The notes under the pieces were generated by a model that searched no databases, was not told the DNA's origin, and saw nothing but the letters and a program-made list of their open reading frames with translations. Positions 10,008 to 43,237 of a DNA stretch of 64,000 nt are shown piece after piece (position 1 is the stretch's first letter; each line of letters opens with the position of its first letter). The DNA is from an uncultured Gammaproteobacteria bacterium. GTDB taxonomy: Bacteria > Pseudomonadota > Gammaproteobacteria > Nitrosococcales > Methylophagaceae. The stretch spans positions 124,001-188,000 of the forward strand of contig CAJIZI010000001.1 of NCBI GenBank assembly GCA_905181885.1, written 5' to 3'. Position numbers and translations under genes: made by a program.

Positions 10008-10412
10008 ATGTTTGGATTCGGCATTACTAAGCACAAAAGGAAACTAAGTGAGGCATTTGAAGCCTGTTTTTGGCCCGTCATGGACCAATTAGGCAATGTT
10101 CCAATTCCAATGCAAAGCGACCCAGCAATTAATGCTTCAATTTTAGCTGTCTGTGAAACTTATGCCTTATCTCAGAACATCACAAAACAAGCTGATATAG
10201 CTCTAATAGCTGACACTATTTTCGAGGAAATATATCGACTCGAATCCATGAATGTTCAAAACCGTGTTGATGTTTGGAAAAATGAAGAAAATGCCCAATT
10301 TATTCAGGCCTATGAAAATGCGCGCGCTCAAACTAACGCAGATCTTAACTTGCGCTGGTTGACTGCTTTTGCCAAAGAAAACTTTAAACCAGCTACTGGC
10401 CTCATGTTATAA
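10008..10412 (+). CDS. Unknown protein, tandem paralog 1 of 3
   Basis: Soluble-looking, mostly helical 134-aa protein with no signal peptide or membrane segment; I do not recognise the family. It is homologous to the next two genes. Shared features are KHKRKL near the N terminus, a Cys in FEACFWP, NVPIPMQ (residues 30-36), a second Cys before YA in AVCETYA, FEEIYR, a Q-x-R (VQNR), EN, AY and a final L-R-W-L. It is the most divergent copy: CETYA replaces the CRGYA of the other two. It starts the cluster behind a plausible promoter and good ribosome site. Function unknown. Confidence 0.8.
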   Translation: MFGFGITKHKRKLSEAFEACFWPVMDQLGNVPIPMQSDPAINASILAVCETYALSQNITKQADIALIADTIFEEIYRLESMNVQNRVDVWKNEENAQFIQAYENARAQTNADLNLRWLTAFAKENFKPATGLML

Positions 10413-10420
10413 GCTATTGA

Positions 10421-10822
10421 ATGTTTTCCGCAGCCATACATAAACCGATACTTTTACAGGCCTTCTCTGATTGCTTAGACCCAGTAAGGAGTGACTTAGG
10501 AAATGTCCACCCAGATATGCGCAAAAGCCCATATATTTCCGGTGCTATCCTCGGCACCTGCCGCGGCTATGCAATCAAGCAAAAACTCAAAGAAAGTGTT
10601 ACTAACAAGCTTATAGATAATGCCTTTGAGGAAGTATTTCGTAGTGAATCACTCGACATGCAATCTCGAGCCTTAACTTGGCTCAATGAAGAAAACAAAG
10701 ATTTTATGGAAGCGTACTATCACGCTAAATCTGTAACTAAACTTGAACTAAAGTTAGATTGGCTTAGTCAACATGTGCAGACGAATTTTGAAAAAGCCAG
10801 TACACTAGGTAAAAAATTATAA
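10421..10822 (+). CDS. Unknown protein, tandem paralog 2 of 3
   Basis: 133-aa protein homologous to its two neighbours. It keeps the core AF-x2-C-x2-P, then NV-x3-M (NVHPDMR rather than NVPIPMQ), AILGTCRGYA, DNAFEEVFR, Q-x-R (MQSRA), WLNEEN, F-x2-AYYHAK and LDWL. The ten-residue AILGTCRGYA block is identical in copy 3, so copies 2 and 3 are closest. It starts 8 nt after copy 1, so the genes are almost certainly one transcript. No catalytic signature, signal peptide or membrane helix is seen. Function unknown. Confidence 0.8.
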   Translation: MFSAAIHKPILLQAFSDCLDPVRSDLGNVHPDMRKSPYISGAILGTCRGYAIKQKLKESVTNKLIDNAFEEVFRSESLDMQSRALTWLNEENKDFMEAYYHAKSVTKLELKLDWLSQHVQTNFEKASTLGKKL

Positions 10823-10852
10823 TCCGTTCTAACTCTTTAAATGGGAAATATT

Positions 10853-11254
10853 ATGTTTGAAATAATAAAGCATAAAAATAAACTAAAACAAGCATTCTCA
10901 GAATGCTTTCAACCACTTAAAAGCATCTTCGATAACGTCCCGATTCCCATGCAAAAAGATCGATATGTCACCGCTGCAATTTTAGGAACCTGCCGAGGTT
11001 ATGCTGAAAAAAATGACCTTACAGAAAAAGCATTTGCCAGCATTGTCGATGCTGTGTTTGAGGAAGTCTATCGTCAAGACTCTGTCGACGTTCAAACCAG
11101 AACGGAGGCCTGGTTAACTGAAAACGATGAGGTTTTTATGCAGTCATATTATCACGCAAAAGATAAAGCCTCTCCCGACATTGAACTAGCTTGGCTGCAA
11201 AGCTATGCTCAAGAACACTTCGATGTTGCTGTTGAGGTACGTCACGTCACATAA
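10853..11254 (+). CDS. Unknown protein, tandem paralog 3 of 3
   Basis: 133-aa protein of the same unknown family. I choose the ATG at 10853 over that at 10841 because the resulting MFEIIKHKNKLKQAF aligns with the N termini of the other two copies and GGGAA lies just upstream. Conserved blocks: AFSECFQP, NVPIPMQ (identical to copy 1), AILGTCRGYA (identical to copy 2), DAVFEEVYR, VQTRTEAWL, YYHAK and LAWL. This mosaic of identities suggests conserved function under selection rather than recent duplication. It converges on the zinc-ribbon gene about 60 bp downstream. Confidence 0.8.
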   Translation: MFEIIKHKNKLKQAFSECFQPLKSIFDNVPIPMQKDRYVTAAILGTCRGYAEKNDLTEKAFASIVDAVFEEVYRQDSVDVQTRTEAWLTENDEVFMQSYYHAKDKASPDIELAWLQSYAQEHFDVAVEVRHVT

Positions 11255-11316: not shown

Positions 11317-11514
11317 TTAAAACGTGTCATTTTCAGTATGCACAGCTACAGATAATTCACCGTTAAAGTCGCAAGTAATAACAAATATAATTGGTCTACA
11401 ACAGACCTGACAATCTTCAATATATTGCTGATCTATATCTTCATAATCAATCAAAACTTCAATCGACTCCCCACAATATGGACAGCTAATAATTTGTTCA
11501 TTTAATAAGGACAT
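11317..11514 (-). CDS. CPXCG-motif cysteine-rich small zinc-ribbon protein
   Basis: 65-aa protein with CPYCG at residues 11-15 and a second cysteine cluster DCQVCC about 28 residues later, together a likely zinc ribbon. This matches the CPXCG family of uncharacterised gammaproteobacterial proteins, whose usual length is about 60-65. The start at 11514 (MSLLNEQ) is preferred because GGAAG precedes it at proper spacing; an in-frame ATG at 11541 would add nine residues. It is monocistronic, convergent with the paralog cluster. A perfect palindrome (7-bp arms, 1-nt centre) lies upstream at 11563-11577. Function unknown. Confidence 0.8.
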   Translation of the reverse strand: MSLLNEQIISCPYCGESIEVLIDYEDIDQQYIEDCQVCCRPIIFVITCDFNGELSVAVHTENDTF

Positions 11515-11623
11515 TTTCTTCCATTCTTTTGCTGTGTGCATCCCTATAATACTATTACTTGAAGTTAAATTTTAACTATACTGTTAATTGTAATGCCAAC
11601 AATTAAGTGGGCCTGAATTAGTT

Positions 11624-12853
11624 TTAGAAATAGACCCGGTATTCTACAGTTAGTGATTGAGAAAAGCTTCCAAATTCAGTTTTTAACCTACCAAACTCTG
11701 GCTCCTTGCCTAATGGAATGTTTATACCAATAGATAGTTCAGATTCATCCGATAATACATACAATGAATATAAAGCTAATAACTTTGATGTATCCTGATG
11801 GTTAAATAAGTAAACTGTATCAACCTGCCACAAAGGGCTAAAATCGTAACTACTCCCGATAGCCGTGTAATTTCGAGCCAAATATGCATTGTTGCTATCC
11901 TCTGTGCCCAGAACTTGATACTTAGCACTATCCTTAGCACCGGAGTGTTGATAAAAATGTTCTAAGCGTAGTGTTAAAGTGTTTTGCCAGCGTTTGTCAA
12001 TCGCCAGGGAAAACTTAGAATCTCGCTTAGTCTTAGCTTTATCAGTAAAGCGGATGTGCCCCTCGCCCCGTAAACCAAACAAATCAAAGACCTCTCCCTG
12101 AAAATCAAAGCCAATGATCTCATCTTTTGACACTTTAGCAACTAATAAGCCCAATTCAAAATACTCACTCAAAGTTGATATTCGGGAAAGGTAAGCTGTT
12201 TCTGCCCAGTCAGGAGATGTTTCCCACCCTGTTGGCTGACTGAGATCTAGTTTATAGTCCATCACCGCTATCAATGACAATGAGGAATCATTACTCCATT
12301 GCCAATCTATACGTGCAGAATCAACACTCTGCTTATAGGTTCTAAAAAATGCTTGAGCAGAAAAAGGGGCAAAAAAGTCATTTGGAGTGAAATAAAATGT
12401 TGTAGCTAAATTAATGGGTTGTCTACCGACTTTTAGACGTAAGTCATTAGTCTGATACTGCACATTTAAGCGATCAATCATTAAGTCAGCATGGCCTTCA
12501 TCGTAACGCCAGTGCAAACCATCACTGCGCTCCGCATCACTAATTACATTAAAGCGACTTCCACCAGTGCGTAATTTGTCAGCTAAAACACTTTGAACAA
12601 TATGTATTTCTGCACTCATACTTGGGCTAGATATATCTAGCATCAACCGACCAAATACACCACTCGCTGTAACTTTATCATGTTCAAATAAGATGTTATC
12701 GCTGGGATTCTTAGCAGTTAGGCCGACGCCACGAACGAAACCTCGTAACTCTAACTCTAACTCTTCGTCTTCCCATTCATAAAATGCTTTTGAAGTATTT
12801 GGCAAAAAAACAACACATAATACAAATAGCCACATCATAAAAGTATAGTTCAT
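11624..12853 (-). CDS. Predicted outer-membrane beta-barrel protein of the ABC/LolA-like cassette
   Basis: 409 aa with a signal peptide (MNYTFMMWLFVLCVVFLPNTSKA) followed by alternating polar/hydrophobic strands and a C terminus ending in VEYRVYF. The terminal Phe and alternating pattern are typical of BAM-assembled barrels. Internal LRLKVGRQPINLATTFYF resembles the strand-plus-loop found in DUF1302/porin-like barrels; that family placement is tentative. It is the last gene of the operon LolA-like/permease/permease/ATPase/barrel and its start overlaps the ATPase stop by one base. Inferred role: the outer-membrane element of that system. Confidence 0.75.
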   Translation of the reverse strand: MNYTFMMWLFVLCVVFLPNTSKAFYEWEDEELELELRGFVRGVGLTAKNPSDNILFEHDKVTASGVFGRLMLDISSPSMSAEIHIVQSVLADKLRTGGSRFNVISDAERSDGLHWRYDEGHADLMIDRLNVQYQTNDLRLKVGRQPINLATTFYFTPNDFFAPFSAQAFFRTYKQSVDSARIDWQWSNDSSLSLIAVMDYKLDLSQPTGWETSPDWAETAYLSRISTLSEYFELGLLVAKVSKDEIIGFDFQGEVFDLFGLRGEGHIRFTDKAKTKRDSKFSLAIDKRWQNTLTLRLEHFYQHSGAKDSAKYQVLGTEDSNNAYLARNYTAIGSSYDFSPLWQVDTVYLFNHQDTSKLLALYSLYVLSDESELSIGINIPLGKEPEFGRLKTEFGSFSQSLTVEYRVYF

Positions 12854-13542
12854 TATATTTTTTGTTCGTCTGATTCGACTTGCCCATCAAGGATATGAAT
12901 GATTCTTTTGGCTCTATCTATCACATGCTGATCATGAGTAGAAAAGAGAAATGTCACACCTTGCTCGCGATTCAATTTTTCCATTAAATCCAATAACAGT
13001 TCTGCTGTTTTAGAGTCCACATTCGCTGTTGGTTCATCAGCTAGAACAATGGCTGGACTGGTTACAATCGCACGGGCAATTGCCACTCGTTGTTGTTGCC
13101 CCCCCGACATTTGATCTGGCCGCCTCTCTTCCATTCCTGCTAGTCCAACATCCGCTAAAGCTTTCATTACCCTCGCCCTTATCATGGCAGGTTTAATATC
13201 CTGAAGTTCCAACACAAATGCTGCATTTTCATAAGCTGTCATCACAGGAATCAAATTATATGATTGAAACACAAAGCCAACTCGGTTCTTACGTACCTCA
13301 GCTAATTCACCATTAGACAATGCTGACAAATCAATACCTTCCAATAATACTTTTCCAGAAGTGGCCGAGTCTAAACCACCTATCAAATTAAGAATGCTAG
13401 TTTTTCCTGAGCCTGAGGGCCCACATAATGCTGCAAAGTCCCTCTTTTCTATAGTTAAAGACACGTTATCTACAGCTTTAACCTGCAATTCACCTTGCTG
13501 ATAATGCTTATCTAAGCCTCGTAATTCGACTATTTTATTCAT
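12853..13542 (-). CDS. ABC transporter ATP-binding protein, LolD/MacB-like
   Basis: 229-aa ATPase. Walker A GPSGSGKTS lies near residues 40-48, the signature MSGGQQQRVAIARA near 143, Walker B IVLADEPTA follows, and the H-loop is in STHDQHV. Length and the VKAVDNVSLTIEKRD opening fit the LolD/FtsE/MacB class that pairs with FtsX-type permeases. It overlaps the upstream permease gene by 4 nt and the downstream barrel gene by 1 nt. It is not the canonical lolD, which lies at 42554-43237. Expected to power the two adjacent permeases. Confidence 0.93.
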   Translation of the reverse strand: MNKIVELRGLDKHYQQGELQVKAVDNVSLTIEKRDFAALCGPSGSGKTSILNLIGGLDSATSGKVLLEGIDLSALSNGELAEVRKNRVGFVFQSYNLIPVMTAYENAAFVLELQDIKPAMIRARVMKALADVGLAGMEERRPDQMSGGQQQRVAIARAIVTSPAIVLADEPTANVDSKTAELLLDLMEKLNREQGVTFLFSTHDQHVIDRAKRIIHILDGQVESDEQKI

Positions 13543-14777
13543 AATGCTTTTAAACTCTCAACAGGTGGAATACGACCTGCTCGCCATGCAGGGTAAACAC
13601 CTGATAGTAATGCCAGACCAAATAGTCCAATCAAAATACCAATGATACTTTCTTTAAATAACCGAATTTTAAAAACTGTATCTAGCAGAACACCACCAAA
13701 GCTAAAGTCATCGCCATAAGCCGATGTTAAATCGATACCCGTTTCGGCCATGTATAGGTACCACGGAATAGTTACGATAATGCCAATAATCAAACCAATA
13801 ACAGCGAGCCAGAAGGATTCTAATATTACTAAGCTAAATAAACTTCGTGGTGACATTCCTAAAGCCATCATCACCCCAAATTCTCGAATTCTCTCCAGTA
13901 CACTCATCAACATCGTATTCAAGATACCCGCGGCAATAAGTAGAGAAATCATTAACTGACTAATTCGGTTCGCACTTTTATCAACGGCTATCATACCTGC
14001 CAAGTCAGGCTGCGTTTGCTGCCAATTAAGCACTTCAACATGTTCAAATTCTGGCTGGCCTTGCATCCTACCTCGTAAGGCATGACTAATCCTCTGGTCA
14101 ACTAGACTAACAGCAATAAGGCTCACTTCATCTGACGCATAGCCTAAGACCTTTTGAATACTTTGCATTGGTAACAATGCCATGCCTCCATCTACTTCAG
14201 CCACTCCAGTTCTAAAAATACCACTAACGCGGGCAACTGCACTGACAATATCGCCATTAATATCAGTTGTTGTATACACAACTTTTTTACCTAAATTAAG
14301 CTTTAATTTACGGGCTAGATCTACACCCATTACAATTCCTTTTCCATTCGTTGTACTAAGCATTTCACCATCTGTTAAGGACTGAATAAACAAATTATTA
14401 TTAGCGTTCTCTTTAGCAGGATCAATGGCAATAAAAGTCCCTCCAACACTTTTCCTTGCACTTGCAAACATTGCCTGACCCTGAATACGAGCCACCACTG
14501 ATTTCACTTCTGGCAAACTTGCTATCAGTGACTGTAAGGTATTTGCACCTTGAATAAGTTTTTGACTACTTGGTGCTCGGTTATAATCTCGTGCTGCAAT
14601 GGTAATATGGCCCATCCCCATATTGGCCCCAGCATCAATCATTCTTGTATGAAAATAATCACCAGCACCTGTAAAAGTGACTGCTAATAAAACACCAAAA
14701 GCAATTGATGAGGCCGTAATTAACGTCCTCCTCTTATGTCGCCATAAGTTTCGCCAAGCCAAAGTATTGAGTTTCAT
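13539..14777 (-). CDS. FtsX-type ABC permease (second of pair)
   Basis: 412-aa permease with the LolC/E-MacB layout: one N-terminal membrane helix (after LAWRNLWRHKRRTLITAS), a periplasmic domain of about 220 residues, then three C-terminal helices. The FtsX coupling region is RIREFGVMMALGMSPR and the end is VYPAWRAGRIPPVESLKAL, characteristic of FtsX domains. It is paralogous to the gene just upstream and overlaps the ATPase gene by 4 nt. The mechanotransmission (rather than channel) mode known for MacB and LolCDE is expected; cargo unknown. Confidence 0.92.
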   Translation of the reverse strand: MKLNTLAWRNLWRHKRRTLITASSIAFGVLLAVTFTGAGDYFHTRMIDAGANMGMGHITIAARDYNRAPSSQKLIQGANTLQSLIASLPEVKSVVARIQGQAMFASARKSVGGTFIAIDPAKENANNNLFIQSLTDGEMLSTTNGKGIVMGVDLARKLKLNLGKKVVYTTTDINGDIVSAVARVSGIFRTGVAEVDGGMALLPMQSIQKVLGYASDEVSLIAVSLVDQRISHALRGRMQGQPEFEHVEVLNWQQTQPDLAGMIAVDKSANRISQLMISLLIAAGILNTMLMSVLERIREFGVMMALGMSPRSLFSLVILESFWLAVIGLIIGIIVTIPWYLYMAETGIDLTSAYGDDFSFGGVLLDTVFKIRLFKESIIGILIGLFGLALLSGVYPAWRAGRIPPVESLKAL

Positions 14778-14792
14778 AATCAGCTATTTCGT

Positions 14793-16016
14793 CTATTGAT
14801 GATGAATAGCATCAATAGGCTTGATGATAGCCACTTTAGCAGCAGGATAAATCACCGCTATCGCGGCGATCACAAATAAAAAGAGTACAGGTATTAGTAT
14901 CGAATTAATCGTCAAAGCTGCATACCAAACTGGGTCGAAGGCAATACCTGCAAATGAAATCTCCTCTGCTAAAGAAGACATATCAAGTCCATTTTCTTGA
15001 AAATACCAAGATAAACTACTCCCCGCAAATACCGCTAAGAATCCAGCTAAGAGAGTTTGAATAAAAATTTCTGTATAAATAAGTAATACTAGTTGCTTGG
15101 GTTTAACCCCAATCGCTTTCATAATGCCAAACTCACGAACTCTCTCAAACACACTCATCAACATCGCATTCAATACCACTGCCGCTACAGCAATATAAGT
15201 GAAAATCATCATAATCACAGTTTGAATATGTGCAGTCTCTAAAAAACGGTTGATAATAGGCATGAGTTGCTGCCAATTCATCACTTCTAAACCACTTCCT
15301 AGGGATGTTTTAAGCTCAGCTGTCTTCAACGTTAAATCACCGGTTCTATCCACTCTCATTAGAACTAATTCATGTGCACCTTTTGGCAAAGCAATCAACT
15401 CACTTAGCATGATATTACTCATAAAGACGCCCGCATTATCAATCGTAGGGGATACTGACTTCAAAATACCCTTAACTTTGAAGCTATCATTTGCCATATA
15501 GCCATCCGCGGTTTGGCCTACAAATATCAATTCATCACCTAAGCTCACATCTAGTAATTTAGATAGTTTTTTGCCAATAACTACGCCATGTTGATCCAAT
15601 GTATTTAGCCAGTCTCCCGTCATGATATGTTGGTCAATTTCTGTCACCATTGGCTCATATACTAAATCGACTCCACGCAATTGAACACCGGATGAACCTC
15701 GGTCACTTGCCATCAAACCAAAAGCAAACAATCGCTTTGATGCATAAAACTCTTCTTCCCTAAACTGTTCTACTAATTGGTCAGCGTTATCTATTAGACT
15801 GTAGATATCTGGTTCATTACGGTACCCCGGCAAGTGAATTTGAATATCACCCGTGTTCATCGACACCACATTATGCTCACTGCCAATAGCAAACCCATCC
15901 ATCAACGCAGCAAAAACAATCATCATTGCACAAGCAAAAGCCATAGCTAATGTCGTCACAACGGTACGGTGACGATGACGAAAAACATTTCGAGAGGCCA
16001 ATGTAATTAGATTCAT
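14793..16016 (-). CDS. FtsX-type ABC permease (first of pair)
   Basis: 407-aa permease of the same layout as its neighbour: NVFRHRHRTVVTTLAMAF before helix 1, a periplasmic domain, three C-terminal helices with FERVREFGIMKAIGVKPKQ, and the terminal YPAAKVAIIKPIDAIHHQ. With the next gene it would form a heterodimer, as LolC/LolE do. It lies 15 nt before the second permease and 22 nt after the LolA-like gene. The conserved QLMPIINRFLETAHIQT segment before helix 2 matches NWQQTQPDLAGMI in the partner in position. Confidence 0.92.
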   Translation of the reverse strand: MNLITLASRNVFRHRHRTVVTTLAMAFACAMMIVFAALMDGFAIGSEHNVVSMNTGDIQIHLPGYRNEPDIYSLIDNADQLVEQFREEEFYASKRLFAFGLMASDRGSSGVQLRGVDLVYEPMVTEIDQHIMTGDWLNTLDQHGVVIGKKLSKLLDVSLGDELIFVGQTADGYMANDSFKVKGILKSVSPTIDNAGVFMSNIMLSELIALPKGAHELVLMRVDRTGDLTLKTAELKTSLGSGLEVMNWQQLMPIINRFLETAHIQTVIMMIFTYIAVAAVVLNAMLMSVFERVREFGIMKAIGVKPKQLVLLIYTEIFIQTLLAGFLAVFAGSSLSWYFQENGLDMSSLAEEISFAGIAFDPVWYAALTINSILIPVLFLFVIAAIAVIYPAAKVAIIKPIDAIHHQ

Positions 16017-16038
16017 AACATTACTTTTGGCTGGATGC

Positions 16039-16812
16039 TCAGCGCTTTTTTAAGCTCGATAAGGAAAATAAACTATCATTTAGCTCAACATTCAGTGATA
16101 AGTGTTTGTAAATGAACTGTGTCAACTCCTCAGGCTTATCTGCTGGTATCACGGTTAGAACTGCAGGGCGCTGGCGGCCTGCTAAAAGCTGGATATCACT
16201 AAACCAAATTGTCCTTGCCAATTCAAAATCCTCATCGTAATAATATTCAACCAGGGGAATGTTACTGTCAGCTAAAACAATCAATTTCAGTTTGCCCCAA
16301 ACTACTGCAGCATCTATCTTTGGAACCAATGAGAATTCAATAATGTTTTGGCCTTCACGCATACCTTCAAAACTAATTTCTGCCGTATAATCTTCTTCCA
16401 AGCGAGCTTCTTTAACCAAATCATCATTGGTTAAGTGGCTTCCCATCCAAGAGCCCACCATCATTCCACTGGTGAGCTTAATTGTACGATCGGTCTTAGG
16501 CAGATAAGTATAAATATGATTATCAGACTTAAGTGTCGAGGTGCCTTTCTCACGTAACGGCAGCATAATGCGAAGCAAGGTTTTTTCTTTACCCTTGGAC
16601 CAACCTTCCATCTTCATGGTGCGCTCATAATGTTTTGTTTTAACATACATAGAGGTGATGGCATATGACGATTGACCCCGCCAAAGATCATCTACCTTAC
16701 TCAGCAAGGCTTTAACACGGTCAACACTGTCTTCTGTCTCTGCATAAGTAGGGAAAGCTCCTAACAACAGAAGCAGTAAACCAGAGTAATAAAACACGCG
16801 CTTGTACATCAA
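16039..16812 (-). CDS. LolA-like periplasmic carrier (outer membrane lipoprotein-sorting family, PF17131-type)
   Basis: 257 aa with a signal peptide (MMYKRVFYYSGLLLLLLG onward, cleaved after TYA). The mature part matches the annotated outer-membrane lipoprotein-sorting family: KGKEKTLLRIMLPLREKGTS, then YLPKTDRTIKL, then MVGSWMGSHLTNDDL. The block YLP-x3-R-x2-K/R-L/I-x-S ... MGS ... D is shared with the carrier of the second cassette (33473-34249), visible homology across the two loci. First gene of the operon. Proposed role: shuttling a hydrophobic or lipidated cargo released by the FtsX/ABC complex toward the outer membrane. Confidence 0.85.
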   Translation of the reverse strand: MMYKRVFYYSGLLLLLLGAFPTYAETEDSVDRVKALLSKVDDLWRGQSSYAITSMYVKTKHYERTMKMEGWSKGKEKTLLRIMLPLREKGTSTLKSDNHIYTYLPKTDRTIKLTSGMMVGSWMGSHLTNDDLVKEARLEEDYTAEISFEGMREGQNIIEFSLVPKIDAAVVWGKLKLIVLADSNIPLVEYYYDEDFELARTIWFSDIQLLAGRQRPAVLTVIPADKPEELTQFIYKHLSLNVELNDSLFSLSSLKKR

Positions 16813-16914: not shown

Positions 16915-17100
16915 GAAAAGAGTCCCGCAATGCCGGTACGAACTGGTTCTCGAACCATGTAGGTTCAAGTGGATACATCGATTGAAACTTGGGCTTCCCG
17001 ACTTGCGGGCCTGCACGCCATTTCAATATCAGTTTCCGAAGCAATTGCTTATCGGCTCAAGACACACTTGTCGCTATCGAACACCGCAGAACTCACAAAT
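16915..17100 (-). ncRNA. ssrS: 6S RNA
   Basis: Global regulator that sequesters sigma-70 RNA polymerase in stationary phase. It lies directly downstream of zapA on the same strand, the conserved gammaproteobacterial site. The ends pair: 17082-17093 with 16921-16932 form a 12-bp helix (G-U pairs included). Inside, GAGCCGATA (minus strand, near 17048-17060) matches the same stretch of E. coli 6S. A CTTGAACC/GGTTC stem precedes the 3' arm, also as in E. coli. Ends are approximate; a Rfam 6S covariance hit would settle them. No ygfA/fau gene follows, unlike E. coli. Confidence 0.9.
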
Positions 17101-32263: not shown

Positions 32264-32303
32264 AAATAATGAAGTCAGTTTAAATAAACTGATTTCATTA
32301 TTT
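32264..32303. terminator. Bidirectional terminator between zwf and the RND-cassette barrel gene
   Basis: Near-perfect inverted repeat of 40 bp: 32264-32282 pairs with 32285-32303 around AA, with one G-U position in the stem. The outer A/T runs supply U-rich tails on both strands, so it should stop zwf on plus and the cassette on minus. It overlaps the stop codon region of the minus-strand barrel gene (32302-32304). Confidence 0.75.
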
Positions 32304-33495
32304 AAAAGTAACGCATAAACTCTAACTGTATGTAGTCATCGTTACGAAGAGGGTACAACACGCTTTCTTCATCTTTAATATTATAAAATCTAGCTTCTAA
32401 CGATACTTTCCAGCGATTACCAATACGACGGCTCGCTTCTACATTCCATCCAGCATCATTACTCGATAAGTCATGAATTAACCCAAAAAGTAATTCACTT
32501 GATTGCTCATCATTCCAGGTAAACCGTGTAGCAAATAATGCGTCATTTTCAAAAGAAGCTAAACTCTCACTATTTCTGTCATCAAACAAATACTCCGCTA
32601 GAACACCAACATCGAGGTTACTATCTAAAATATTGTAGAATGTGTATTCCACCCCCCCAGTAAAAGCGGTAAAAGTATCAGATTTTGTATCGCGACGAAT
32701 TGTCTCTAACTTCCAAAGCCATGACTGAAAGGTATATTGAACATCTAATCCTGTTTGCTTCATCGTCTCATAAAAGGGAATTAAAGCTGTCCCAGATTCA
32801 TTCAGTAGTAGCAATGGTTCACGATTAGTGCCGTAAAAATGCGATAAGCCTATGTCCCATTCACCTATACTATGAGACCAGCGGACTGCTATATCAAGAT
32901 GCCTCTGACCCGCTCCTGATTCATATTTGGCTGCATCTTTTTCCACTACTAGTGCTGAGCGAAATCGTCCATTTTTCCCCACGAATGTTCGCTCGCGAAA
33001 ATATGGCATCATAAATAAATCAACAGTACCCCAGTTTTGAAAGAGGCTGAGGTTAATCATCGGCTGACCTAATTTATCTTCAGTATCATTATTTTCAACC
33101 AAATCTGTTTGATTGATCACATCTACTAAGTGTTGAGATTCAGTGACGCCCCAAAACACTTTACTCATACCTACTCTTAATTCCCAGCTATCTTTAACTA
33201 ACAACCACTGTAACTCCCTAAAGTCCAGATGGGTCCGCTCAACATCTTGAGTATCAACACGAAAAAAAGGCGAAATAATTAAACTCTGCCGCCCCCTATC
33301 CCATTCCGAGTAAAACTCTGGGTAAAAAGCTACAGAGGACGCGTGTTGCTCAGGTTCAGAATAAAGTGAATTACTCAATGAATATCGAAATTCACCAGAT
33401 ACATACCCCGTCAATTCGTATGCTTGTACATGACTAAAAGTCGAAAATAATAGCCCTAAACAACATAATGTTTTAACGCTGACGTTTAAGGTCAT
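32302..33495 (-). CDS. Predicted outer-membrane beta-barrel protein of the RND/LolA-like cassette
   Basis: About 397 aa with a signal peptide (MTLNVSVKTLCCLGLLFSTF, cleaved after VQA). Amphipathic strands follow and the C terminus ends in LEFMRYF, a terminal Phe typical of BAM substrates. The segment LRVGMSKVFWGVTESQHLVD recalls DUF1302-like barrels and is positionally like LRLKVGRQPIN of the first cassette's barrel. I choose the ATG at 33495; a GTG at 33513 adds six residues. The start lies inside the LolA-like gene (23-nt overlap), so the two are translationally coupled. Confidence 0.75.
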   Translation of the reverse strand: MTLNVSVKTLCCLGLLFSTFSHVQAYELTGYVSGEFRYSLSNSLYSEPEQHASSVAFYPEFYSEWDRGRQSLIISPFFRVDTQDVERTHLDFRELQWLLVKDSWELRVGMSKVFWGVTESQHLVDVINQTDLVENNDTEDKLGQPMINLSLFQNWGTVDLFMMPYFRERTFVGKNGRFRSALVVEKDAAKYESGAGQRHLDIAVRWSHSIGEWDIGLSHFYGTNREPLLLLNESGTALIPFYETMKQTGLDVQYTFQSWLWKLETIRRDTKSDTFTAFTGGVEYTFYNILDSNLDVGVLAEYLFDDRNSESLASFENDALFATRFTWNDEQSSELLFGLIHDLSSNDAGWNVEASRRIGNRWKVSLEARFYNIKDEESVLYPLRNDDYIQLEFMRYF

Positions 33496-34249
33496 TCTTC
33501 TTGAAATCGGCACTAGTTAATCCAGTTTTAAACTTAAAATTAGTCCAATACAACGTCGTCGACTTTCCATTTTGTTTGTTGTCCATTGTCATAGTATGCG
33601 CACGCCAGTACTGATTTAAATACAGTTGATAATCAGTAAATCGCTGGACTTTTAACAGGCTGCCTTTACGATCATAATACTCCACTTTTTGGTTACGATA
33701 TTCCACCTTATCTACCCAAACATAGCTTTTAGTATAACCAGAATATTGGTACTGTGGACGTAGCTCGAGTACAAAGCAATCAATACCATCAAGCACTTCA
33801 TCCCGTAAATATAAATAATTATACTTAGGAATTTCAAAGGAGCTAATATCTTCATAGGCAAATTCACTACCCATAAATGGTCCGGATTTATTACTAGATG
33901 AAATACGCTTCACTCTTTTTAAAGCCGGTAAATAAATCCATTGTTCATCTGCTACTAGGGCATGTGAATAACTTAAAAAAGCTGTGCCTTTAATATCACG
34001 TGGCTCATCAAAAACAGTAAGGCCCTTATCTCCATCACCTTCCATTTCTAAATTAACCACGCGAATTTGGCGCACGCTCTCCTGTCCATGTCGGTTTCGC
34101 AATACCATTTTCATTACAGCAGAACTATCTTGCCAACCTTTATCCCGATTATCTGTTTCTAAGGCAATCGCAAAACCTTTTTCTTCTGGCGTTTCAGCAA
34201 CAGCTAGTGATGTGACCGTCAACATCAGCACTATTAAAAATTTATACAT
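33473..34249 (-). CDS. LolA-like periplasmic carrier of the RND cassette (PF17131-type)
   Basis: 258 aa with a short signal peptide (MYKFLIVLMLTVTSLAVA-ET). The mature protein has KGTAFLSYSHALVADEQWIY, YLPALKRVKRISSS and FMGSEFAYEDISSF, the signature blocks of the outer-membrane lipoprotein-sorting family. YLP-x3-R-x2-R-I-x-S ... MGS ... D matches the same blocks in the protein at 16039-16812. Its gene overlaps the RND gene by 8 nt and the barrel gene by about 23 nt. Proposed role: periplasmic acceptor for the RND transporter's cargo. Confidence 0.87.
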   Translation of the reverse strand: MYKFLIVLMLTVTSLAVAETPEEKGFAIALETDNRDKGWQDSSAVMKMVLRNRHGQESVRQIRVVNLEMEGDGDKGLTVFDEPRDIKGTAFLSYSHALVADEQWIYLPALKRVKRISSSNKSGPFMGSEFAYEDISSFEIPKYNYLYLRDEVLDGIDCFVLELRPQYQYSGYTKSYVWVDKVEYRNQKVEYYDRKGSLLKVQRFTDYQLYLNQYWRAHTMTMDNKQNGKSTTLYWTNFKFKTGLTSADFKKNDLKRQR

Positions 34250-36539
34250 TTAGCTTTTCCTCTAACTTCATCAATAATGGTGGTAAAAACAAAAAGTCCA
34301 TTATTAAAGCAATAGCAATTGTTATAGCAGCCATAGCACCCATATCAGAGTTGAGAGAAAAATGAGACTGACTTAATACCAAAAAGCCCATTACTAGCAC
34401 TAGGGAAGTAACCCATAGAGCTACACCAACCGTGTTAAATGCATAGCGTACGGCCTCTTTTTCATCCATGCCTTTTTCGCGGCGTGCACGAAGGTACTTA
34501 CTTAAGAAATGGACTGTATCATCGACTACAATACCTAACGTCATACCAGCAACAACAGATAATGACAAACCCACCTGCCCCACCATGAGGCCCCACAAGC
34601 CAAATGCCATTCCAGCAGGAATTAGGTTCGGTGCCAAACTAATCAAACCAATACGTCTTGAGCGTAAAGCTAAGATCAGGATAAATGAAATAACAATCAA
34701 GGCCAACGTCGTCCCCGCTAACATACTGTTTACATTACGTTTACCTATGTGTGCAAACATCAGACTCGGGCTCGCCACTGTATAAGCAACATCCGCTATG
34801 TTGTTATCTAGCCAATCTGACATTCGTCTTTCTATGCCCAACATCTCTTCAGTATGTAGATTTTCAAGCGTAATAATTAAACGTGTATGTGACTTATCAA
34901 TACCAATTTGGTCATTCAAGTCTAAACCATAAGGCAATGATAATTCGTATAATAATAAATATTGTGCTGCCTGCTCTCTGGAGGCAGGTAGACGGTAAAA
35001 AGCAGGATCATCTGCATGCATATTCATATTCAATCGTTTGAATGTATCTGTAATAGACTGCACATGCATCACTTCATCTTGCGTTCGTAACCACTCAGAA
35101 AACATTTCAACATCTTCTAAGAATTTAGGCTCACTGACACCACCACTTTCACCTTGATTTAAAGAGTACTGAATAGTATAAATACCTGACAAATTTTGAC
35201 TGGAAAAATCTGTCGCCTGTCGAAAATCGACAGATTCATCAAAGTATTCGACAAACTGATCGTCTAGTTTATTTTGAGGTAAAAAAGCCATTAGAGATAA
35301 GGCAATCCCCCCCATTACTAGCAAGAGCAATTTACGGTGTTCAATCACTATATTGGCAAATGAATTCATTACACCATTTTTTTGCTCTTCTCTTGCCTTG
35401 ATACGCATTGGCATCAATATCACCATCGCAGGTAAAGTTGTCACAGAAAGAACAAATGCAAATAACACTCCTATTGCCACCACGTTACCCAAATCATGAA
35501 AAGGTGGGACATCACTAAAATTCATACTTAAAAAGCCAATCGCAGTTGTGACACTCGTTATAAAAATAGGTTGTATATTAATTCGTAAACTATCTGCTAT
35601 AGCATCTACTTTGTTGATCCCCTTTCGAAGATTATGTAAGAAAGTTACTAATAAATGCACCGTATCAGCAACAGCCATCGTCATAATGATAGTCGGTGCT
35701 GAAGCCGAAGCTGGTGTTAATTTCCAGCCCATCCACCCCATCAAGCCCATTGCAAAAATAATCGTGAAGAAAATCATTACTATTGAAGAAATAGTTGCCG
35801 AAAAAGAACGCAACAAAATACCTAACACGACAATAATTGTTAAGAACATCATTGGAACCAAAGTAGTCATATCATTTTGAGAGGACTCACCAAAAGCGTT
35901 ATTCATCATCGCTAGACCCGTGATGTGTATCCTATGGTTAGGATAACTGGCCTCTAATTTACTCTTTAACTCTCGTGAAAACTGAGCTACTTCAGGGACT
36001 TCAGTTAATGACTTACCGGGAAGCTGGATGGTCACATTTACACCTGTTACATGCCCAGATGGTGAAATCAGACGCTTAACTAATAATGGTTCCTTTAAGG
36101 CAACCCCTCGCACATAAGAAATATCTTCTAGTGACAAATTAGTACTGCTATCAACTAGATCCCCGACCAACAGATCATCATCTTTTGCTAAAGTATGCTG
36201 ATAGTTAGTAATCGAATCGACTCGAGTAGAGTATGGGATCTGCCATGATAATTCTGTTAATTCCGCAATCATATTTAGAGTGCTAAAATTAAAGACATCC
36301 GTGCCTTCTGGCTCTATAACGAATAAGACATTGTCTGTTTTAGTATAAATATTCTGCATCTCTTCAAAAGCTTGCAGCTCAGGGTTCTCTTCGCTGAAGA
36401 ACACTCTGTAATCATTAGTAAACTCAATAAAGCGACCACCACTTCCCGCACTCATCACCACTAATAAAGTCAGGATGAAAATTTGCCACGGGTGCGTAAT
36501 AACAAAGCTGATATAACGCTGGATAAAAGACTCCTTCAT
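34242..36539 (-). CDS. RND-superfamily transporter, MMPL/SSD type
   Basis: 765-aa inner-membrane protein with two repeats, each one helix, a large periplasmic loop, then five helices. The opening FTNDYRVFFSEENPELQAFE is the typical MMPL start. SSD-like helix motifs appear in both halves, for example MTMAVADTVHLLVTFLHNLR and GMTLGIVVDDTVHFLSKYLR with the conserved Asp residues used for proton coupling. Length and topology fit lipid-type RND proteins (HpnN-like) rather than tripartite drug pumps, and no membrane-fusion protein gene is present. First gene of the three-gene cassette. Confidence 0.92.
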   Translation of the reverse strand: MKESFIQRYISFVITHPWQIFILTLLVVMSAGSGGRFIEFTNDYRVFFSEENPELQAFEEMQNIYTKTDNVLFVIEPEGTDVFNFSTLNMIAELTELSWQIPYSTRVDSITNYQHTLAKDDDLLVGDLVDSSTNLSLEDISYVRGVALKEPLLVKRLISPSGHVTGVNVTIQLPGKSLTEVPEVAQFSRELKSKLEASYPNHRIHITGLAMMNNAFGESSQNDMTTLVPMMFLTIIVVLGILLRSFSATISSIVMIFFTIIFAMGLMGWMGWKLTPASASAPTIIMTMAVADTVHLLVTFLHNLRKGINKVDAIADSLRINIQPIFITSVTTAIGFLSMNFSDVPPFHDLGNVVAIGVLFAFVLSVTTLPAMVILMPMRIKAREEQKNGVMNSFANIVIEHRKLLLLVMGGIALSLMAFLPQNKLDDQFVEYFDESVDFRQATDFSSQNLSGIYTIQYSLNQGESGGVSEPKFLEDVEMFSEWLRTQDEVMHVQSITDTFKRLNMNMHADDPAFYRLPASREQAAQYLLLYELSLPYGLDLNDQIGIDKSHTRLIITLENLHTEEMLGIERRMSDWLDNNIADVAYTVASPSLMFAHIGKRNVNSMLAGTTLALIVISFILILALRSRRIGLISLAPNLIPAGMAFGLWGLMVGQVGLSLSVVAGMTLGIVVDDTVHFLSKYLRARREKGMDEKEAVRYAFNTVGVALWVTSLVLVMGFLVLSQSHFSLNSDMGAMAAITIAIALIMDFLFLPPLLMKLEEKLNV

Positions 36540-41313: not shown

Positions 41314-42561
41314 ATGTTTAATCCATTAAGCGTGTACATCGGCCTGCGCTATACGCGCGCGAAACGACGCAATCATTTTATTTCCTTTATCTCGCTAACT
41401 TCAATGTTTGGTGTTGCCTTGGGTGTTGCCGCATTGATCACCGTTTTGTCCGTAATGAATGGTTTTGAAAAAGAGTTACGGGAACGTATACTCGGTATGA
41501 CTTCACATGCTTTTATAACTGGCAATGGCAGTCCACTCACAGATTGGAAAAACTTACAAAGCCAAATTCAGCACCAACCCCATTTATTAGATTCAGCACC
41601 TTTTGTTGAAGGGCAAGCAATGCTTAGCCAAGGTAACCGAGTTAGAGGTACCCTGATCCGTGGCATAGATCCAAAATTAGAACCTCGCGTTTCGACCATT
41701 CATGAAAATATAATTCAAGGTCACTTTAACAACCTAAAGCCGGGTGGCTTTGGCATAATCCTTGGTCATGATTTAGCACGCGCCATGGGTGTCCGTACGG
41801 GTGACAAAATCACCTTGATAACTCCCCATGTGAGTCCAACCCCAGCTGGTGTAATTCCTCGCTTGAAACGTCTAAATGTAGTCGGTATTTTTGAAATTGG
41901 TATGTATGAGTACGATAGCGCTTTAGCTATCATGAATATTGAGGATGCCGCTAAACTATTTCGTATTCCGAACCAAGTGACAGGACTTAGACTTAAGCTC
42001 GATGATGTATTCCAGGCTCCTCGAATTACTCACAATATAATGAAAACTTTGGGCACTGAATATCGTGCAGTCGACTGGACTTACCAACATGCCAATTTTT
42101 TTCGCGCTCTAAAAACAGAAAAAACAGTCATGTTTGTAATCTTACTTCTCATCGTTGCTGTTGCCGCTTTTAATATTGTCTCAACTCTCATCATGATGGT
42201 GACTGATAAACAATCCGATATCGCCATTTTGAAAACCCTTGGTATGACCCCTCGCGATATAATGGCTATTTTTATGGTGCAAGGTGTCTTGATCGGTATA
42301 TTTGGTACCATCTTAGGCATTATCGGCGGCGTCAGCTTGGCCTTAAATATTGCAAATATTATTGCCTCATTAGAGGCTTTTTTAGGCTATCAGTTCCTTC
42401 CTGCTGATGTCTACTATATTAGCAACCTACCCTCCGACTTACATTGGAATGATGTCACTACTATTGGTCTAACTGCTTTTGCTCTTTCCTTAATTTCCAC
42501 CATCTATCCATCATGGAAGGCAGCACAAACTCAGCCAGCTGAGGCGTTGCGCTATGACTAA
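41314..42561 (+). CDS. lolC: Lipoprotein-releasing permease LolC/LolF type
   Basis: Inner-membrane subunit of the Lol ABC complex that extracts outer-membrane lipoproteins. The 415-aa protein begins with VYIGLRYTRAKRRNHFISFI and helix 1, then a periplasmic domain containing PFVEGQAM and RGTLIRGIDP, then three helices with KQSDIAILKTLGMTPRDIM. It ends TYPSWKAAQTQPAEALRYD-like. Only one permease gene accompanies lolD; no lolE is seen, so this is probably the homodimeric LolF form described in some gammaproteobacteria. It overlaps lolD by 8 nt. Confidence 0.93.
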   Translation: MFNPLSVYIGLRYTRAKRRNHFISFISLTSMFGVALGVAALITVLSVMNGFEKELRERILGMTSHAFITGNGSPLTDWKNLQSQIQHQPHLLDSAPFVEGQAMLSQGNRVRGTLIRGIDPKLEPRVSTIHENIIQGHFNNLKPGGFGIILGHDLARAMGVRTGDKITLITPHVSPTPAGVIPRLKRLNVVGIFEIGMYEYDSALAIMNIEDAAKLFRIPNQVTGLRLKLDDVFQAPRITHNIMKTLGTEYRAVDWTYQHANFFRALKTEKTVMFVILLLIVAVAAFNIVSTLIMMVTDKQSDIAILKTLGMTPRDIMAIFMVQGVLIGIFGTILGIIGGVSLALNIANIIASLEAFLGYQFLPADVYYISNLPSDLHWNDVTTIGLTAFALSLISTIYPSWKAAQTQPAEALRYD

Positions 42562-43237
42562 ACCTATCGTCATCGAATGTAGAAACATCAGTAAACAATT
42601 TGCCGATGGTGAATTGAAAACAAATGTTCTCAGTGATGTAAACCTCTCGGTCCAAAAAGGTGACCGCATTGCTATTATTGGTAGTTCAGGTTCGGGGAAA
42701 AGTACCTTATTACATCTCCTCGGTGGTCTTGATAAACCAACAAGTGGAAGCATTAAAGTCCACGGTCAAGATATTAATAGACTCTCTGTTAAAACCCTAA
42801 GCCAATTACGTAACCAGAGCCTAGGATTCGTATATCAATTTCATCACTTACTACCTGAGTTTAGTGCCGTAGAAAATGTTGCCATCCCACTTATTATTGG
42901 TGGTGAAAAACCAAAACAAGCTGAACAACAAGCCGAAGACTTATTAATAAAAGTCGGTTTAAGTCATCGTTTAGCTCACAAACCCAGTGAGCTCTCAGGT
43001 GGGGAACGTCAACGTGCTGCACTCGCGCGGGCGCTGATTACTCAACCAGACTGTCTTCTTGCAGATGAGCCTACTGGAAATTTAGATCACCGCACAGCTC
43101 AAGGTATTTTTGATCTTATCCTTGAGCTCAATGAATCCTTAGGGACAGCATTAGTTATTGTCACTCATGATGTCGATTTGGCTAGCCAAATGGGTGCAAT
43201 GCTAACACTCAAGGATGGCTACCTTGCTGCCTCATAG
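42554..43237 (+). CDS. lolD: Lipoprotein-releasing ATPase LolD
   Basis: ATPase of the Lol complex. 227 aa with Walker A GSSGSGKST, the LolD-specific GFVYQFHHLLPEFSAVENV (Q-loop), signature ELSGGERQRAALARAL, and Walker B LLADEPTGN. The segment QFHHLLPEFSA separates true LolD from the related ATPase at 12853-13542, which reads QSYNLIPVMTA there. Overlaps lolC by 8 nt and converges on the DUF2062 gene, 12 bp away. Confidence 0.95.
   Translation: MTKPIVIECRNISKQFADGELKTNVLSDVNLSVQKGDRIAIIGSSGSGKSTLLHLLGGLDKPTSGSIKVHGQDINRLSVKTLSQLRNQSLGFVYQFHHLLPEFSAVENVAIPLIIGGEKPKQAEQQAEDLLIKVGLSHRLAHKPSELSGGERQRAALARALITQPDCLLADEPTGNLDHRTAQGIFDLILELNESLGTALVIVTHDVDLASQMGAMLTLKDGYLAAS

Follow-up and report, generated by a model that had tools for sequence, protein, structure and literature searches.

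A Conserved Five-Gene Cassette Combining a Type VII ABC Transporter, a LolA-Like Carrier, and a Predicted OprD/AlgE-Like Barrel: a Candidate Trans-Envelope Export Line

Five adjoining genes in the genome of an uncultured member of the Methylophagaceae encode a LolA-like periplasmic carrier, two FtsX/LolCE-type permeases, a LolD-like ATPase, and an outer-membrane β-barrel (Table 1). This gene set is kept together in several phyla, is separate from the lipoprotein (Lol) pathway of the same genome, and on balance is likely to be a self-sufficient line that exports an amphiphilic or lipid-like molecule across the envelope. How lipids other than LPS and lipoproteins, as well as other amphiphiles, reach the surface of diderm cells is a largely open question. 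The cassette is common in the sampled genomes: a barrel-only profile had matches in 40 of 370 Gammaproteobacteria, and the barrel was found in 63 of 397 genomes of a phylum-wide sample, some of these hits being weak. Yet the barrel has no Pfam name.

Composition of the Cassette

All coordinates, unless assigned to another genome, refer to the window, i.e., the whole stretch of 64,000 nucleotides that was analyzed. The genes follow each other on the minus strand in the order carrier, permease 1, permease 2, ATPase, and barrel; the first two junctions are gaps (22 and 15 nt) and the last two are overlaps (4 and 1 nt). This arrangement had been described in the initial annotation and was confirmed, as was its statement that the barrel ends in Phe (the C terminus reads ...EYRVYF). 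The domain search that it had proposed returned LolA_like for the carrier, FtsX plus MacB_PCD for each of the permeases, and ABC_tran for the ATPase, leaving the barrel without a Pfam family. With FtsX and MacB_PCD above the Pfam cut-offs in both permeases (34 to 42 bits for MacB_PCD) and ABC_tran in the ATPase, the transporter belongs to the type VII ABC superfamily. Translation of the carrier is likelier to start from the ATG at 16809, which has AAGGA 7 nt upstream, than from the listed TTG at 16812. In comparison with the nearest congener, the dN/dS ratios are 0.09 to 0.13 across all five genes (0.12 for the carrier), so that the entire cassette is under purifying selection.

A zapA-like open reading frame (ORF) of 101 aa precedes the cassette in many congeners. 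On its other side, three tandem similar ORFs of 133 to 137 aa without a Pfam family (10008 to 11254, plus strand) converge on the cassette, and four ORFs of similar size occupy the equivalent place in one congener (L085, 7602 to 9279).

Table 1. Coordinates of the cassette genes and associated features of the window
Feature	Coordinates	Strand	Evidence or remarks
LolA-like periplasmic carrier	16039..16812	-	PF17131 LolA_like, Pfam 131.5 bits; Sec signal peptide; no lipobox
Permease 1, FtsX/LolCE-type	14793..16016	-	Pfam FtsX + MacB_PCD; TIGR02212 78 bits, below cut-off
Permease 2, FtsX/LolCE-type	13539..14777	-	Pfam FtsX + MacB_PCD; TIGR02212 122 bits, below cut-off
LolD-like ABC ATPase	12853..13542	-	Pfam ABC_tran; TIGR02211 212 bits vs cut-off 308
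Outer-membrane β-barrel, 18 strands (predicted)	11624..12853	-	Signal peptide; C-terminal Phe; AF2 model
6S RNA	16918-17095	-	Between zapA and the cassette
Second PF17131 cassette	32302-36539	-	MMPL/RND pump, 765 aa; LolA-like protein, 258 aa; outer-membrane-type protein, 403 aa

Separateness from the Lol Pathway

The canonical Lol exporter is encoded at 41314 to 43237 on the plus strand, as had been noted initially together with the conclusion that the cassette is not this exporter. The curated models bear this out: the LolCE-type permease and LolD of that locus score above the cut-offs of TIGR02212 (362 bits) and TIGR02211 (308 bits), respectively, whereas the cassette permeases (122 and 78 bits) and ATPase (212 bits) fall below them. 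Instead of a LolC/LolE pair, the locus encodes a single permease of the LolF type, and just one gene in the whole genome exceeds the LolCE cut-off. Given that the genes for LolA (PF03548) and LolB (PF03550) are located elsewhere in the genome, the lipoprotein pathway is complete without the cassette. The cassette itself lacks the Lol partners, as its carrier belongs to PF17131 rather than PF03548 and it includes no LolB.

Though below its cut-off, TIGR02212 is the best family model for both permeases, and LolF and LolC align best among their PDB relatives, above MacB; the nearest solved relative of permease 1 is LolF (9w37). In the Lol system, LolA docks on the proline-rich Hook of LolC, which was reportedly described as the docking element by Kaplan et al. 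in 2018. The Hook segment has 19 residues, including 4 Pro, in the window's own LolF and 14 residues with no Pro in all 126 cassette permeases (65 of 65 copies of permease 1 and 61 of 61 of permease 2). In the absence of the Hook, the hand-over to the carrier must differ from that in Lol, provided that the carrier docks on the permeases. The solved relatives of the carrier, by sequence, are 3buu, 9tp6, 4z48, and 3bk5. The second of these is LolA3 of Porphyromonas gingivalis, a PF17131-like protein in which the LolA arginine is missing and binding to LolB is slight (PMC13103446). The annotation of the carrier as a lipoprotein-sorting protein is probably misleading.

The Outer-Membrane Barrel

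The AF2 model of the barrel, built from 62 sequences (pLDDT 92.9, pTM 0.87), contains 18 strands, the first of which starts at residue 33, directly after the signal peptide; with the topology assigned from strand order, the short turns are on the periplasmic side. This model replaced a poor one (pLDDT 64) from a shallow alignment. Its best structural matches are AlgE (3rbh) and OccK9 (4ft6), with a Z score of 23.5 and 3.0 to 3.5 Å over 307 residues, at about 10% identity to AlgE and Occ/OprD in the structural alignment. The barrel is therefore predicted, with high confidence, to have an OprD/AlgE-like 18-stranded fold. Its most conserved stretch, GRQPINLATTFYFTPNDFFAPF..., maps to the long loop that joins strand 5 to strand 6. 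In Pfam searches, neither the window barrel nor any of the 13 members of its family matched the OprD or alginate-export families, and none of the 13 matched the Omp85 or POTRA families at E ≤ 1. Omp85 chains were not among the structural matches listed for the model either, which by itself carries no weight. The OprD/Occ proteins are uptake channels and AlgE is an exporter; barrels of this type are known for water-soluble solutes or polysaccharide.

Conservation and Co-Inheritance

A scan of named genomes recovered 468 relatives of the carrier, the best 80 loci of which were examined. Among the 48 assessable ones (those with all four upstream genes and at least 1,300 nt after the ATPase), 46 carried a member of the barrel family 3′ of the ATPase, in 45 cases ending in Phe; a 4-nt ATPase-barrel overlap, seen in 22 of the 46, was the most frequent arrangement. 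These genomes, mostly metagenome-assembled, are recorded as Gammaproteobacteria, Zetaproteobacteria (including the isolate Mariprofundus ferrooxydans PV-1), Nitrospirota, Nitrospinota, and Desulfobacterota (deltaproteobacterial Desulfobulbaceae), and no carrier relative was found in viral contigs. The order lolA-permease-permease-ATPase-barrel is kept in congeners and extends to two further families of the class. Within the genus, no congener has an ABC-type carrier without the barrel; in one assembly, the cassette is split over contigs. About half of the congeners searched have no cassette, which is thus not essential there; in two further ones, the other four genes are gone and all that is left, next to zapA, is a barrel remnant of 178 or 59 residues.

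Several loci deviate from the common layout. The two without a barrel (L128 and L169) yielded no barrel remnant by tblastn; in L128, a TonB-dependent receptor (11505 to 13652) lies at the barrel's expected place, 209 nt downstream of the ATPase of a complete four-gene set, and L169 has a 1.7-kb gap. Two nitrospirotal loci contain extra ORFs between permease 2 and the ATPase, and that of L161 (10287 to 11063; the other locus is L154) resembles a periplasmic TPR protein such as those encoded in the Borrelia cluster described below. An extra copy of permease 2 is present in L126, L144, and L145. A cassette was also seen in a record named Desulforudis (Bacillota; L164), where its carrier groups beside those of Desulfobulbaceae in the tree; this contig is possibly misbinned.

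In the barrel-led search, a cassette ATPase or permease was found beside the barrel in 32 of the 34 gammaproteobacterial neighborhoods fetched. This set included a subtype with the order carrier-ATPase-permease-barrel, in which both permeases are fused into one protein of 835 aa. Fourteen further barrel neighborhoods, most of them from the phylum-wide search, comprised 10 with the cassette (fragmented in one), three with part of it (L250, L256, and L258), and one, with a 35-bit hit, without it. As the carrier-led and barrel-led searches begin with different proteins, the linkage is not an artifact of the query, and its retention over congeners and several phyla makes the five-gene set more than a chance association. 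The initial annotation had regarded a barrel not conserved with the other four genes as grounds for abandoning its proposal; the outcome was the opposite in both searches. The cassette is real, and the case for it is stronger than the sequence alone allowed that annotation to see.

Pairwise distances of the barrels correlate with those of the other four genes over 43 cassettes (r = 0.80 to 0.84), with a contribution from shared descent. In a tree of 56 PF17131 carriers, a quick one with some long branches and in which resemblance to one or the other cassette partly guided the choice of rows, the 37 carriers linked to ABC and the 19 linked to RND split on one branch with 100% SH-aLRT support, and engine type changes once, against a mean of 16 after shuffling. 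Carriers thus seem to stay with one type of engine. The tree also mixes rows from different phyla, a hint that the cassette may have been transferred as a unit. No flanking genes recur across distant lineages, so the genomic context provides no hint of the substrate.

Alternative Functions

A second lipoprotein route, in which a subset of lipoproteins, perhaps surface ones, would be sorted and the barrel would take the place of LolB or flip them to the outside, would agree with an engine closest in the PDB to LolF/LolC, with a carrier of the LolA superfamily, and with the proposal of lipoproteins among the cargo of the Borrelia BBJ23-29 cluster (PMC13078400). It is nonetheless unlikely, in view of the complete canonical Lol set in the same genome, the lack of the Hook in both permeases, the difference between PF17131 and the PF03548 LolA family, and the properties of LolA3 of P. 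gingivalis, which is without the LolA arginine and a poor binder of LolB (PMC13103446).

The resemblance of the barrel to OprD/Occ uptake channels could instead point to an uptake or retrograde line, in which the barrel would admit a hydrophobic nutrient or remove misplaced lipid and the carrier would bring the cargo to the inner membrane. Against this stand the equal fold match to the exporter AlgE and the LolF/LolC type of the engine. Moreover, import is not among the activities known for type VII ABC systems, which extract, export, or signal, and this direction of transport is quite improbable. Still further down the scale, and disfavored to the point of being hardly credible, is the reading as a MacB-type drug pump whose partner had been misread; the initial annotation had named MacB-type pumps with a MacA/TolC partner as a potential refutation. 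The MacB_PCD matches would fit it. However, the ATPase is separate rather than fused, there are two permeases with LolCE as their best family model and with LolF/LolC ahead of MacB in the PDB, a LolA-like partner is conserved, and Pfam detects neither a MacA/HlyD nor a TolC domain in any of the five proteins.

Proposed Function

Known type VII systems use ATP-driven movements of their periplasmic domains to act on a partner protein. In the cassette, a LolA-type protein and a barrel of its own accompany the engine, and the simplest reading is that an amphiphile is extracted, carried, and delivered to the outer membrane. The type VII ABC exporter would extract this molecule from the inner membrane, the PF17131 carrier would take it into a hydrophobic groove of the LolA type and ferry it across the periplasm, and the 18-stranded OprD/AlgE-like barrel would receive it and pass it to or through the outer membrane. 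The direction of transport, the hand-over steps, and the nature of the substrate are all inferred, and the water-soluble solutes or polysaccharide usual for OprD/AlgE-type barrels fit a lipid poorly. Of the initial proposal of a parallel line for a hydrophobic or lipidated substrate, the part that concerns a route apart from the lipoprotein exporter is supported, given the complete Lol set elsewhere, the conserved barrel, and the lack of MacA/HlyD and TolC domains in the five genes, and the substrate is still conjectural.

A more tentative suggestion, for which the chances appear somewhat less than even, is that such cassettes form a distinct class of type VII ABC systems, an ATP-powered, carrier-mediated line that spans both membranes, has its own OprD/AlgE-like channel, has spread as a unit, and brings a nonlipoprotein lipid or other amphiphile to the surface of many environmental bacteria. 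The set is compact and conserved, with an ATPase, a soluble carrier amenable to purification together with its cargo, and a single barrel, which makes the question of surface delivery testable.

Comparison with Known Systems

Type VII ABC engines, LolA-fold carriers, RND-based analogues, and the Borrelia cluster are already known. A search of open-access papers (with subscription journals and preprints outside its range) found analogues, namely AmeABCD, Borrelia BBJ23-29, and YbbAP-TesA, but no earlier description of the five-gene set. As far as the papers searched show, the combination of an OprD/AlgE-like barrel with Hook-less permeases, its cross-phylum spread, and the split from RND-linked carriers are undescribed.

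The cassette shares with LolCDE/LolF-LolA-LolB the type VII ABC permeases, a LolD-like ATPase, and a carrier of the LolA superfamily. It differs in its scores below the LolCE/LolD cut-offs, the missing Hook, a carrier of another Pfam family, and a barrel in place of LolB, and its genome has the canonical set as well. YbbAP-TesA, a type VII ABC system that is thought to extract hydrophobic compounds (PMC12646458), has one large permease, as does the 835-aa subtype of the cassette, but its partner is a hydrolase, and it includes neither a carrier nor a barrel.

The RND/MMPL-PF17131-barrel cassettes, exemplified by the second one in the window (Table 1), are likewise made up of an inner-membrane engine, a PF17131 carrier, and a barrel, but the engine is of the RND type and the carriers form a separate group in the tree. 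The 403-aa protein of the window's RND cassette, which is kept in several congeners, ends in Phe and has no Pfam family; kinship of its barrel with that of the ABC cassette was considered and rejected (hhalign probability of 2%; no HMM hit).

The Borrelia BBJ23-BBJ29 cluster encodes a type VII ABC transporter, a LolA-like protein, and an outer-membrane barrel (PMC13078400), and its TPR genes have a counterpart in the TPR-like gene of L161. In contrast to the cassette, it has an Omp85-type barrel and just one permease, presumably acting as a homodimer, and it also includes two TPR proteins and BBJ29. It can be regarded as a computational precedent, to which the cassette appears analogous rather than belonging. 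The AmeABCD system of Castellaniella defragrans, which has been linked to tolerance of apolar monoterpenes, consists of an HAE3 RND pump, a DUF1329 protein of the LolA superfamily, and a DUF1302 outer-membrane protein (PMC6394551). Here, too, an inner-membrane engine, a LolA-type periplasmic protein, and an outer-membrane protein are encoded in one operon, albeit with the RND engine, DUF1329, DUF1302, and the additional periplasmic AmeC where the cassette has ABC/FtsX, PF17131, and a barrel of its own. AmeABCD is a precedent from experiment, in which the engine is RND and the substrates are apolar; the cassette would be an analogue of this system and not a member.
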